This document shows positions 15,570 through 33,994 of a DNA stretch of 64,000 nucleotides, in pieces; positions within the stretch are counted from its first letter, which is position 1; each line of letters begins with the position of its first letter. The position numbers were made by a program, and so were the translations under genes. The stretch covers positions 110,381,319 through 110,445,318 of the forward strand of contig CP136066.1 of NCBI GenBank assembly GCA_032622095.1. The letters are read 5' to 3'. The notes under the pieces were generated by a model. That model ran no database searches. It had not been told where the DNA came from and saw nothing but the letters and a program-made list of their open reading frames with translations. The stretch is from Siphonodentalium dalli (Eukaryota; Mollusca; Scaphopoda; Gadilida; Siphonodentaliidae).

Positions 15570-16239
15570 ACTAATTTGACTTGTACTATATCGGTAATTC
15601 CGCCGTAACAGTAATGTGTATATGCTTGTCGATATACGATGTTTCTTTGTTATACCATAGTACATGTACATGATGTAAATAAAATTGAATACAAAATTTT
15701 TAAAAAAGTTTTACATGACAATGGTTTTGAGGTGCGAAATTTCATTATTGGCGAAATTAATAACAACGGCTATCTAATTTGCATGTATTTGTTAAGTATA
15801 GTAGTTTTGCTGACATTTATTCTATTATGCATGAACCCACTTCAAAGACATTGAGTCCCTTTAAATATGCATTCAGTGTTCCAGACCTCCAGTTACAACA
15901 ACAACTAATTTGACTTGTACTATATCGGTAATTCCGCCGTAACAGTAATGTGTATATGCTTGTCGATATACGATGTTTCTTTGTTATACCATAGTACATG
16001 TATATGATGTAAATAAAATTGAATACAAAATTTAAAAAACAGTTTTACATGACAATGGTTTTGAGGTGCGAAATTTCATTATAAGCGAAATTAATAACAA
16101 CGGCTATCTAATTTGCATGTATTTGTTAAGTATAGTAGTTTTGCTGACATTTATTCTATTATGCATGAACCCACTTCAAAGACATTGAGTCCCTTTAAAT
16201 ATGCATTCAGTGTTCCAGACCTCCAGTTACAACAACAAC
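15570..16239 (+). repeat. Tandem duplication, two units of about 334 bp
   Basis: Unit one starts ACTAATTTGACTTGTACTAT near 15570 and unit two starts with the same text near 15904; both end with CCAGACCTCCAGTTACAACA. I counted only a handful of differences by eye (for example ATTGGCG versus ATAAGCG and a shorter T run), so the duplication looks recent. No coding frame is meaningful. Confidence 0.95.
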
Positions 16240-16316
16240 ATAAAAATATATAATTCAACATCATGTTCTGCTTTGTTCTGTTGGAAACAAAATATGACAT
16301 TTACAATAAACCTATA

Positions 16317-16475
16317 TAAGGATTAACTGTCATGTGGACTGTTTTTATGGAGATGTAACGGTGAGGTAAGTGGACATAACTTGTGTAAAACCCGAAGGGT
16401 TTTACATACAAGTTATGTCCACTTACCTCACCGTTACATCTCCATAAAAATAGTCCACATGACAGTTAATCCTTA
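16317..16475. repeat. Long near-perfect palindrome with a GAA triloop
   Basis: The left arm (16317-16393) and right arm (16397-16475) pair almost completely: TAAGGATTAACTGTCATGTG pairs with CACATGACAGTTAATCCTTA, and so on inward to AAAACCC-GAA-GGGTTTT. I see one substitution (CTGTTTTT versus CTATTTTT) and one two-base indel. The centre is a C-GAA-G triloop. It could be a snap-back MITE or a product of hairpin-primed repair. Confidence 0.95.
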
Positions 16476-16479
16476 CATT

Positions 16480-27777: not shown

Positions 27778-28340
27778 GATAGAACCGCATTAGTGTCTGG
27801 ATTTTGACGAAATTATCGCACGAGATTTGTTGGCGGAACGATACCTCGTGTGCGGGACGCAGTCCCGCACGAGAGGTATCGCGTTCCGCCAACAAATCGA
27901 GTGCGATAATTCGTCAAAATCCAGACACTCATGCGGTTATATTTTTATTACATATCTCCGTATCATAGTATAAGTTGACTCACAATCGTATATCTCCGGT
28001 GCAGAAAATGTGAATTTAATTGAGTTTTAATGGCATTTAATGGTTAACGCAACAATAAGACAGGGAGCCCGTCTATCCGTGAGTGACCTTGACCCTTCTT
28101 TAATGATGCGTTTGAAATTAAATTCTGATAGATTTTCCAAATATATAACCCAATCAGCGCACTGCGATTTAGGCAAGTGGGTTGTCGCCATTGCGTTGAG
28201 AAAGTAAAAATAGTAACGGCGAGAACCAGTCTGACAAAAGTAAAAATAGTTCCGTCGACAGATTGCACTAGTGCGATTCTGAGAATTATCACACGCCTGG
28301 AAACTTGTGCGATCATGCGAATTACGTTGATAGATATGTA
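27778..28340. mobile_element. Insertion inside the minisatellite, carrying a long hairpin
   Basis: About 560 bp of non-satellite sequence interrupts the array between GGTAAATATA and AAGAGCGTCCC. The first 156 bp form the palindrome 27783-27938. The rest (27939-28340) has no recognised domain; a 90-codon minus ORF (28316-28044) gives no family match. Clear terminal repeats or a target duplication were not resolved, because the host array is itself repetitive. Confidence 0.6.
27783..27938. repeat. Long near-perfect palindrome with a GCA triloop
   Basis: The left arm 27783-27858 (AACCGCATTAGTGTCTGGAT inward to GTGCGGGAC) pairs with 27862-27938 (GTCCCGCAC out to CCAGACACTCATGCGGTT). Only a few mismatches and small indels are visible. 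The centre is C-GCA-G. Confidence 0.95.
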
Positions 28341-28893: not shown

Positions 28894-29072
28894 TGTTTGC
28901 CTAATTTATCCCCGAAGAATATTGAAAACAGTTGTTATGTTTGTTCGATGATATATTACAATGCCCGTATGAATATCAGTATTTCGTATATTTATCGAAA
29001 CATTTTAACCCTCTTTCTAAAAGTAGTAGAGACACAACCTGGAAGTCCAAAATGAGCCATGTCCGCTTAAAG

Positions 29073-29717
29073 GTGACCTATCCGAGTTGACATAATAAAA
29101 CCACAATATGTACGTTTTATAAACACCATAAAACCACGATGCGGTCAGATGATCGTAGCCCGTTTATATATAACCATGGTATATGCCAGATATATATAAC
29201 CGTACAAAAAAAAAACGCTGTGCTTTTGACCGTGTATTTATCCATGGTGTGTGTACCTCTGGTTGTCCGTAACCTGCTGTTATTGCTTTGAACTGTAATC
29301 AGAGGTACACACACCATGGATAAATACACGGTCAAAAGCACAGCGTTTTTTTTTTGTACGGTTATATATATCTGGCATATACCATGGTTATATATAAACG
29401 GGCTACGATCATCTGACCGCATCGTGGTTTTATGGTGTTTATAAAACGTACATATTGTGGTTTTATTATGTCAACTCGGATAGGTCACATAACCTATCCG
29501 AGTTGACATAATAAAACCACAATATGTACGTTTTATAAACACCATAAAACCACGATGCGGTCAGATGATCGTAGCCCGTTTATATATAACCATGGTATAT
29601 GCCAGATATATATAACCGTACAAAAAAAAAAACGCTGTGCTTTTGACCGTGTATTTATCCATGGTGTGTGTACCTCTGGTTGTCCGTAACCTGCTGTTAT
29701 TGCTTTGAACTGTAATC
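29073..29717. repeat. Palindromic repeat X: arm, loop, inverted arm, then a third direct copy
   Basis: The left arm 29073-29260 (GTGACCTATCCGAGTTGACA to GTGTGTACCTCT) pairs with 29301-29488, 188 bp each. I saw no mismatch on reading both through, and even the A10/T10 tracts agree. The loop is 29261-29300 (GGTTGTCCGTAACCTGCTGT onward). After 29488 a third copy, arm plus loop, runs forward at 29492-29717 with one extra A in the A tract. The right arm and third copy therefore form a second palindrome centred near 29490 (GGTCACATAACC). Partial X sequence recurs at 32527-32860 and 34733-34775. No gene is encoded. Confidence 0.95.
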
Positions 29718-29743
29718 ATGTTCGACTGGTGTTGTTAGATTGG

Positions 29744-31115
29744 TAATGAGATTAGATTAGATTAGATTAGATTTTATTTTGATAGTTCAGGTTATACATG
29801 TGTACATGAATACATATTATGGATATGTTTACAAGTTGAATCAATATAATACACAACAGTATATACATATTATAATTATAATAGTATATATTAAATATAA
29901 ATATGTTATATGTTGGGTTCTGATGAGACAGTTAGAGTTCAGACTGTGTAAATAATTGATATATACCGTAAGAGGATTTATCAATTTTCTCAAGAATTAA
30001 ATCATTTTATTTTATAGAGGTTGTCGTCAGAATATAAGGTAAATTATGTGGCAGAAATCTGTATAAAAATAGAAATACTCATGTGACCTGAGACCATCAG
30101 GGATAACGCAAAAAGTTCTCTAAACGAGAACTTAATTCCATTGCGGTCCCTGGTGGCTTTCGGCACATGGGCAGTGAGTGAAGTTCGAAACTTCGGAGCA
30201 CAATGTATAAAAGTATTTACAATATATAAATTAAATAAAAGCCATTTCAGAACGAGACTTATATGGAGAGGGAAAAGCTAATAAAATAAGTCAATACGCA
30301 AGCAATGTAACTTTAACAGCCCTTCGCCACTTGCATACACGCACCACTGCCATGTATGGCCGGCTTTGGACTGGTCTGTCCATGACCGAAAGATGAAAAC
30401 CCGAAATACAAGCAGCAGTAACGATATATGCAACTGGCCAAGTACTGTCATCGTACATTACAATATAAATTGAACTGCTGTATTGAGGAAATTCTAGTTA
30501 AAAGATGATAAAATAGATTGTTCCTAGTAAAAGGCAAATGGATTTTCTTCTCTTTTCATCAATTTCTCTAGTAGGTGTTGTTTAATGCAAAATTTCCAGT
30601 GTTTGAGATCAAAGGGGCACGAGTATGGTATACTTTATCTAGACCATTCCACAGTTTCGCTCCTGTAAAATAGAAACTGTGGATGCCCTTGGATTTTACA
30701 GAGGGTAATGAGTATTTCAGGGTCCCTGATCGAGTTACATATGTACAATGAGTACTAGCTAATATAAAATTATTGTCTAGATATGCTGGAGCTTTCTTTT
30801 CAGAGATTTTTAGTACCATCAGTATTTTTCTGAAGTCTACCCTATCACTCACTGGAAGCCATTTAACATGTTTAAATTCATTATAACCAATATGAGTCAT
30901 GCGATCTAGTTTCATGATAAATCTGACAAGTCTGTTTTGAGATGCTTGGAGACGCTTTTTTGTTTTTACTGTCAGACTAGAGAACCAAAAACCACTTGAG
31001 TAGTCAAAATGACATTGGATAAGAGCATTAATTAGAAGTTTTCTGCATTTTTCATTCAGATAGTTTGCTTTTCTGTATAAAAATTTCAGTTTTGCATTTA
31101 CCTTACTTAGCAGTT
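29744..31115 (-). pseudogene. CR1/L2-like LINE, 3' half, second copy, with AATCT tail
   Basis: The minus-strand frame 30915-30568 encodes VKWLPVSDRVDFRKILMVLK, then TRSGTLKYSLPSVKSKG and FTGAKLWNGL, the C-terminal region of CR1/L2-type LINEs. Upstream sequence to 31115 matches 4230-4400 of the split LINE (for example CAGTCTGTTTTG, GACATTGGATAAGAGCATTA, ATAGTTTGCTTTTCTGTATA). The 3' untranslated part runs to a tail of about five AATCT units (29749-29773, seen on the plus strand as ATTAG repeats). Similarity stops at about 31115, where it is 5'-truncated. Catalytic domains are absent. Confidence 0.85.
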
Positions 31116-32526
31116 TCTATGTCTTGTTTTGTCATATTTACTGTTTGAACTTTGTCTGCAATAGACGCTTTTTTATACTAGAATTTGCGCAACAGGAGCG
31201 CAGGGAAATCGCACGTCGATCGGTTTAAGGGTTTTTTTTTAAAGAAAAAATATTTATATGATATAGAGAGGCCAACAGAACGATACCATATACTATATTC
31301 GACTGCTTCCAATTTGTGTTTATTTGGATGTCTTTAGTGTAGTTTTGTGGTTATGAGAGCTCATTTATCCCCTGATGTCTGCTCCATACATGTGGTCTTC
31401 TCTTTTAAAATATCTATATGATTTCAAACAGGGGTGGTGCCAGGATATCCCCGGCCAGGTGTTATACGATTCCCCGACAGGGGGCGGGCTTTATCTACCG
31501 GTTTGCCAATTGCAGATCTCACCGACGGGGGTCGCTACCCTCCCCGACAAGGGTGCGGATGTAGCCACCTGACCCCCCCCCCCCCCCCGGGTGCCACTCA
31601 AGATAATTTAGTATCGATGATTTCTCGGCTTCATTGAAATTCCATCAATTTCTTAGTGACGAATTTGTTGTTTATAGACCAACATTTGCATATTTCCCTT
31701 TAATTTGCAAAATTCTGGATTGAAATGGCCATGTTGGCAATTTTCAAACCTATAACGGTGAGTGTCAGGTTGAAATTTTCCCAGAACTGGAAAGCATAAG
31801 GTCAGATTAGATGCTAGGATTGTCAAATTTTCATGTTCAAATTTTCAAAATGTTTTCGCATCGGGCCGTCCACCATCGTCCGACCCGTGTTTCCTGTGCC
31901 CTTGCCAGTAATTACTTGCTAATTAATTTAAGATAAAAAATATTATGGGTGTAAATTTGTCTGGCGTTATACCAATAGCTGTCTGGATTTTTTAATCTCA
32001 TACTGGGCCGAACCATCCTTTTCGTCCCTCCCTACATGGCTAGTGGCCACACGACTACTGGTCCATTTAGAATAGGCTACCATCTATAGTCGTCTCTGAG
32101 GGAACATTTGGGGGGGGTCCAAATTGAATTATGCAAACTTGTGAGTTTGGTGTGGTTCAATGGGGTGGATGCAGTTGGAAATTCCAAGGTGGAGACCCCC
32201 ACCCCAACAGAAACCCTGCAGCCAAGTCTCGCGTGCAATATATCCCAGACTCAACTAGGGGTGCCCCTCGTGACTTAGTTTCTACTTTCGGCATATGGCT
32301 ATTTGTTTTCTATCCAAGAATACACTGCACCGGCGGCAATATATTGACCATACTGCAAATGAAAACGCTTCAGTTGCGATCACACGGTAACGTCGTGATG
32401 CAAGTAAGACGATAATTGTGTCATTATACGGAAGACTGATTGTCAAAAAACGCAATATCAAAATACACAGGGCACGGCTTATCGATCCAAACTGTGGAGT
32501 ATGTTTTCTTTGTGTATTTCTCCCAT
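31116..32526. other. Non-genic stretch with a GC-rich patch
   Basis: Contains a C17-type run near 31572-31588 and a GC-rich patch (31433-31570). The segment near 32140-32230 resembles 11735-11800. No credible gene. Confidence 0.4.
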
Positions 32527-32860
32527 ATACCCATGGTTATAGATAAACGGGCTACGAGCATCTGACCGCATATGTATACGTTTTATATACACTATATATA
32601 AGACCACAACATGTACATTTTATATACACGATAACACCACCATTTGTTTGTTTTATATACACACCATAAAACCACCATCTATACGTTTTATATACACACA
32701 ATAATTATTAAAAAAAACACCATTTGTACGTGTTATATACACACACACTAAAACCACTATTTGTACGTGTATATACATCATAAAACCACCATACCGTGCA
32801 CCTGTACTTGTTATATACACACCATAAAGCCACCATCTGTATATATACGTTTTCGATATA
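32527..32860. repeat. Repeat X fragment followed by a tandem array of its end
   Basis: 32527-32570 reads like the inverted X arm (CATGGTTATAGATAAACGGG, CATCTGACCGCATATG). From about 32574 a degenerate 34-38 bp unit recurs about seven times, with CCATAAAACCACCATYTGTA, CGTTTTATATACAC. This unit is the terminal portion of X (AAAACCACAATATGTACG, TTTTATAAACACCA). Confidence 0.8.
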
Positions 32861-33994
32861 TACCGGAAAAATAATTCGATCGGACATGCAGGCCCATTAA
32901 TATGGCGTGTTGATGGCAAAGGTATCCACTTTCCAAACATATCCAAAGTTGTATACGTTTTGAATTGTGTCATGCAGGTCAGCAAAAATTCAAATAATGG
33001 TATCTTCTGAACTATAAATAGCGTACATGCATGCTTTCGTCGCCCAAAAGCGACAAATAGCCAATAGCGTTCTCAATTGCAATTGAGAACGCTATTGGCA
33101 TGTCAGCTTTATTTGTGGTTGTTATCGACCTATTGCTTTTTAAACGATTTTGTGGCGTTTGTGGTGATTGAAAGTATTTTTCCTTGTATTTTGCCTGGTG
33201 AGGGAAACTTTGCATAGTTGATGTCAATCGAAGCGGGCATCTTTAAGTCGAATGAGCTATAGAACTCTCTCAACTCTCTAATAGTCGGAACATACAACCG
33301 TTGTCAATATGCTTTCGAATGATATCAGTTTATCTTTCTCGGTGTAACTTCAGAATACGATATCTGCAATGATCATATGTGTATGCAATTAGTTGCCGCA
33401 TTGACTCGATACACAACGCATTCAATTATATATGTAAGGGCCACCCAGTTCATTTGTCCCAAGACAGAGAATATCAAATGAACACCATGCACCATATATA
33501 TACCAGTATCAAAGACACGAATATATAGCGCGCTGTGGTCTATATATCGTAGGCATAAATGGTACATAACATGCATGAGATCAACCGTGCACAGATTTTC
33601 TGATATAATGAATTCCGATCGGGTTTGTCGATAACTCGCTTGCGCTTACAAATGGTAATTTTTCGCCTAATGTATTTTTGAACTGCTGGTGATCTTTAAA
33701 GTTTAAAACGGTTTTTAATTATACATGTAGCATTTGCATTTCTCATAACACGAATCACACTAGTCTGCGTGTATCGGAATGCTCAATGTTTTTACATAAA
33801 AGATAAACCTTGACGTGACAATATGGTCTCCGCCGGGGTGGGGGGGGGGGGGGGGGGGGTCCAACTTAATGTTGAAATTTTCCTCAAACTTTCCAACTGT
33901 TTGAATTATCCAACCTGACACATTCAATGATTTCAAATTTTCTAATCGGATGCCTTACAGTACCAACAAAAAAATACCGAGAATAGGGAAATGT
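32861..33994. other. Non-genic stretch with a G-run
   Basis: Holds the 38-bp palindrome listed separately and a G19 run (33841-33859). Short ORFs here show no recognised domain. Confidence 0.4.
33061..33098. repeat. Perfect 38-bp palindrome
   Basis: CCAATAGCGTTCTCAATTG followed immediately by its reverse complement, with no loop. Confidence 0.95.

Follow-up and report, generated by a model that had tools for sequence, protein, structure and literature searches.

The window analyzed here, a stretch of 64,000 nucleotides from Siphonodentalium dalli (contig CP136066.1), contains a small inverted triplication at positions 29073–29718, in which one copy of a composite sequence (X) was tripled in place and recently, very probably through two template switches within a single replication or repair event. 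The locus sits in a 233-Mb contig of a genome of 2.23 Gb (9 contigs).

Anatomy of the triplet

The triplet comprises two forward copies of X on either side of an inverted one. Copy 1 (29073–29301, forward strand) consists of X at 29073–29260 followed by a 40-bp loop at 29261–29300, with an ancestral left flank on one side and the first switch point at its other end. Copy 2 (29301–29488, reverse strand) is X inverted and without the loop, and copy 3 (29489–29718, forward strand) is again X plus loop, starting with ATA, either filler or variant, and continuing into the rest of a transposon-like repeat. The perfect 188-bp palindrome proposed from the letters alone was borne out, with 29073–29260 and the reverse complement of 29301–29488 matching at 188 of 188 positions, A10/T10 tracts included; when one mismatch is allowed the inverted arms stretch inwards to 192 nt, leaving a spacer of 32 nt. 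The strand carrying copies 1 and 2 (416 nt) folds at −234.9 kcal/mol compared with −42.1 ± 4.4 kcal/mol for shuffled sequences (z = −44), and a chance origin of the hairpin is therefore excluded.

The loop is present 3′ of copies 1 and 3 only, so that the order (X + loop), inverted X, (X + loop) given by the sequence-only reading is correct. That reading also had a third copy of X following at once. A forward copy is indeed found there, aligning at 29492–29718 (or from 29489, if its ATA is set against the GTG of the other copies) with zero substitutions over 185 bp, but it is not fully identical, having A11 for A10 and ATA for GTG at the first three bases. These differences, peculiar to copy 3, argue against an assembly or library artefact, in which a fold-back chimera or mis-joined reads would have generated the inverted and the extra forward copy. 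Palindromes are difficult to sequence, yet a fold-back chimera of the simple kind would yield a single inverted copy with no return to the correct right flank, and here the flanks are orderly and the locus lies within a 233-Mb contig, making such an artefact improbable.

The triplication implies no function and shows no sign of any. An Rfam scan found no RNA family in the window, and nothing tested supports a hairpin-RNA or miRNA function.

X is a composite of two dispersed repeats

X is not an element in its own right but a composite, in which the left end of one repeat (A) is joined to the left terminal repeat and first ∼160 bp of another (B). The left third of X (29073–29140) is the start of repeat A, a dispersed sequence whose left part recurs at many other loci and whose copies begin at approximately TTTAAAG|ATGCCCTGTCCGATTTGACA. 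In the window, the host copy of repeat A occupies 29067–33246 on the forward strand, with TTAA at its start (29067–29070) and at its end (33243–33246), termini of the form AG(G)TG(A)CC... and ...GGGCATCT, and an internal minisatellite of 33–35 bp. Near its right end, at 33060–33099, is a perfect, spacerless 40-bp palindrome (GCCAATAGCGTTCTCAATTG / CAATTGAGAACGCTATTGGC).

The right-hand two thirds of X, from 29141, have at least 39 further matches in the genome at about 82–93% identity, most of which begin sharply at GC[AG]GTCAGATGCTCG. The matching sequences belong to repeat B, which is transposon-like, with terminal inverted repeats of ∼54 bp (GC[AG]GTCAGATGCTCGTAGCC...) and a size of ∼1.83 kb in one complete copy (locus L009, 294–2124). 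At another locus (L067), repeat B is present as two adjoining copies with a single base between them, which suggests that B inserted beside or into its own termini. The copy whose left end was triplicated (29557–32569, forward strand) sits in the minisatellite of repeat A, and is itself interrupted by a later insertion, C (about 29749–31107, reverse strand), giving a nested arrangement of C within B within the minisatellite of A across 29067–33246. Insertion C ends in (GATTA)n on one side and contains a 182-amino acid open frame that looks, by eye only, like the C-terminal part of a LINE; the frame has no match in Pfam.

One ancestral copy, tripled in place

The left flank of copy 1 (TTAAAG|GTGACC) is the left terminus of repeat A as found in its other genomic copies, and the right flank of copy 3 is the remainder of repeat B. 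The outer flanks are therefore the two sides of a single original insertion, with the additional sequence generated between them. A deletion of 1 bp and an insertion of 4 bp (ATAT) are found in all three copies of X and in none of 20 other copies of repeat B (0/20), and three substitutions in the loop, common to copies 1 and 3, are likewise absent from the 20. Junctions 1 and 2 each occur once in the 2.23-Gb genome in a pattern search allowing up to 3 mismatches. Taken together, the single ancestral flanks, the shared private mutations and the unique junctions indicate that one copy was triplicated in situ, recently.

X differs from other copies of repeat B by 4% at minimum and 6% at the median, compared with 0% among the copies of X themselves, and the triplication is thus much younger than the repeat that was copied. 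With no substitution in about 3 × 185 sites, divergence per copy is below about 0.5% (95%, rule of three). Perfect symmetry of the arms had been taken to mean either very recent origin or active arm-to-arm correction. The former is upheld, with zero substitutions among copies that share an older set of private mutations, and the latter is not needed, as recency alone accounts for the absence of substitutions. An older triplication, held identical by arm-to-arm gene conversion, would also give perfectly identical arms, and gene conversion is described, at least for large sex-chromosome palindromes, as keeping the arms alike. To our knowledge, however, the arms in known cases of palindrome gene conversion measure kilobases and more, against 188 bp here; no copy shows age, the underlying repeat being about 4–6% from its relatives; and a young event explains zero substitutions over 188 bp without correction. 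Conversion is accordingly a very doubtful explanation for this locus.

The uniqueness of the junctions bears equally on the suggestion that a hairpin underwent rolling replication. X does contain a transposon terminal repeat, as might be expected of a hairpin element able to move or replicate itself, whether inserted as one unit or generated by a rolling hairpin. The genome search proposed earlier to learn whether X is usually single, paired or triple found no other full-length copy of the composite and each junction pattern only once. As neither X nor its junctions were found elsewhere, X is not bounded on both sides by element ends, and its flanks are the split halves of a single ancestral insertion, rolling replication or self-propagation of X is scarcely credible. 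Template switching, the other origin that had been suggested, was supported.

Junctions and proposed mechanism

Junction 1 (29297–29301, forward strand) lies at a short interrupted inverted repeat that pre-existed in the ancestral sequence, in which AATCA at the 3′ end can pair with TGGTT at 29260–29264 to form a 5-bp stem with one G·T pair and a 32-nt loop, 42 bp overall. A stem this good at a fixed pair of bases 41 apart is found at 0.46% of random sites in this genome, and extension from the AATCA/TGGTT primer yields exactly the inverted copy. Very probably, synthesis proceeded forward through X and the loop up to 29301, where the 3′ end AATCA would have folded back on TGGTT and primed reverse synthesis, giving an inverted X without the loop. 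Near 29073–29076 the strand would have switched again, with ATA added or kept, and regained the original template, since copy 3 has a forward-oriented loop and leads directly into the right flank; X and the loop would thus have been copied a second time before synthesis continued into that flank. From this arrangement we infer that priming was by fold-back, that the event ran in this direction and that its setting was replication, as opposed to break repair.

At junction 2 (29480–29500, forward strand; GGTCAC-ATA-ACC) both sides map to ancestral 29073–29076, the inverted copy ending at ancestral 29073 and copy 3 resuming at 29076 (or at 29073, should ATA be a variant form of GTG). The junction falls on the quasi-palindrome GGTGACC (29072–29078), 2–5 bp inside the terminus of repeat A; beyond GGT-G-ACC there is no clean pre-existing inverted repeat at this site, where the three odd bases (ATA) are found. 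Some copies of repeat A read ATACCC, and junction filler is nonetheless a simpler account of the ATA at the start of copy 3 than an allelic origin or an older state.

The position of junction 2 raises the alternative of a two-step event, in which a double-strand break, located at the left end of repeat A or close to it, was followed by fold-back of the end or sister fusion and then by error-prone joining, with no switch at a fork; a transposase cutting at the TTAA end of repeat A perhaps caused the break. The near symmetry of the junction and its 3-base filler, as in end joining, are compatible with this, as is its closeness to the terminus of A. Against it, copy 1 retains an intact left end of repeat A, junction 1 is far from any element end, and by rough estimate 10–20% of such cases would be expected to lie within 5 bp of an element end by coincidence. 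A break followed by joining is therefore unlikely, with two template switches the preferred reading. It would be more speculative still to propose that transposase cleavage at the TTAA end of A provoked the fold-back, with transposon ends acting as seeds of small inverted triplications, and that the pair of outward-facing B termini (29141–29420) could become a new foldback or MITE unit; we give this little credence.

Comparison with small inverted triplications

The triplet has the architecture that defines small inverted triplications (SITs), with a DUP/IN/DUP form at its own locus and flanks that are single and ancestral. SITs are abundant in rad27Δ yeast and present in human tumours, and have median sizes of 148/160/148 bp, a spacer of 30 and junctions that are reverse-complementary over 6 bp (Lei et al. 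2026; PMC13334657). Their duplicates range from 7 bp to >10 kb and the inverted part from 20 bp to kilobases, with the spacer near 30 (PMC13334657). The values here, 226/188/226 with a 32-nt spacer and a 5-bp junction stem, are within the published range, and the triplet is similarly near repeated DNA. With regard to the reverse-complementary junctions, typically of 6 bp, the triplet agrees with the published patterns at junction 1, where the 5-bp stem includes one G·T, but no more than loosely at junction 2, which has GGT/ACC and a 3-base filler in place of a 6-bp repeat.

The proposed route to SITs, attributed to errors in flap or Okazaki-fragment processing (FEN1), begins with a 3′ flap folding back, continues with synthesis in reverse and ends in a second, return switch, which the authors leave unresolved (PMC13334657). 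No FEN1 defect is known here, and the triplet is found in a whole-organism reference, whereas SITs are known from rad27-deleted yeast or tumours and were not seen in 15 human genomes (PMC13334657); inheritance in a normal germline is therefore an extension of what has been described. The triplet represents a base-resolved, apparently young SIT in the reference, seemingly germline, of a large eukaryotic genome, where such events are rarely described, and it illustrates how a perfect, striking palindrome can be accounted for with no mechanism to maintain it. Tabulating such triplets across the genome, along with their stems and spacers, would show if the fold-back rules of rad27Δ yeast extend to normal germlines.

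Comparison with other rearrangements

ODIRA in yeast also produces inverted triplications without loss of flanking sequence, at interrupted inverted repeats of 2–14 bp, mostly 40–80 bp overall (PMC10766183). Junction 1, at 42 bp overall, resembles these, whereas junction 2 is weak and lacks a clean inverted repeat, and the triplet is far too small to hold a known origin, 188 bp making an origin unlikely. DUP-TRP/INV-DUP rearrangements have an identical order of copies but span kilobases to megabases and have their junctions within long inverted repeats (PMC4352052). In short-range template switch mutations, local copying of the reverse strand likewise makes perfect inverted repeats, although these are usually tens of nucleotides in length and usually a single inverted stretch (PMC7954356). 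Copy 1 and the inverted X now carry outward-facing transposon terminal repeats, as foldback transposons and MITEs do. Unlike those elements, the pair formed in place, has no dispersed copies (its junctions being found once in 2.23 Gb) and has no target-site duplication around it, the left flank being the end of A and the right the rest of B.

Inverted repeats in the genomic background

The triplet is an ordinary, known type of copying accident, of which it is a clean, germline-type example. A k-mer scan that recovers the known case found no second clear X/inverted X/X triplet in 258 kb of the genome. In 184 kb, made up of the window and 12 random stretches (120 kb), close inverted repeats were mostly 85–98% alike, and several of these look like foldback-type elements. 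One other near-perfect palindrome seen there, without a spacer, consists of a 30-bp minisatellite in inverted arrangement within one of the random stretches, of 10 kb (L077, 401–674), apparently a second recent local inversion event in this genome. Within the window, a hairpin at 16314–16478 with arms of 71 nt (97% complementary) and a 23-nt spacer may be a foldback-type element, and a 164-bp near-palindrome at 27779–27942 is 87% self-complementary. The window also includes a 334-bp tandem duplication with 98% identity at 15570–16239.
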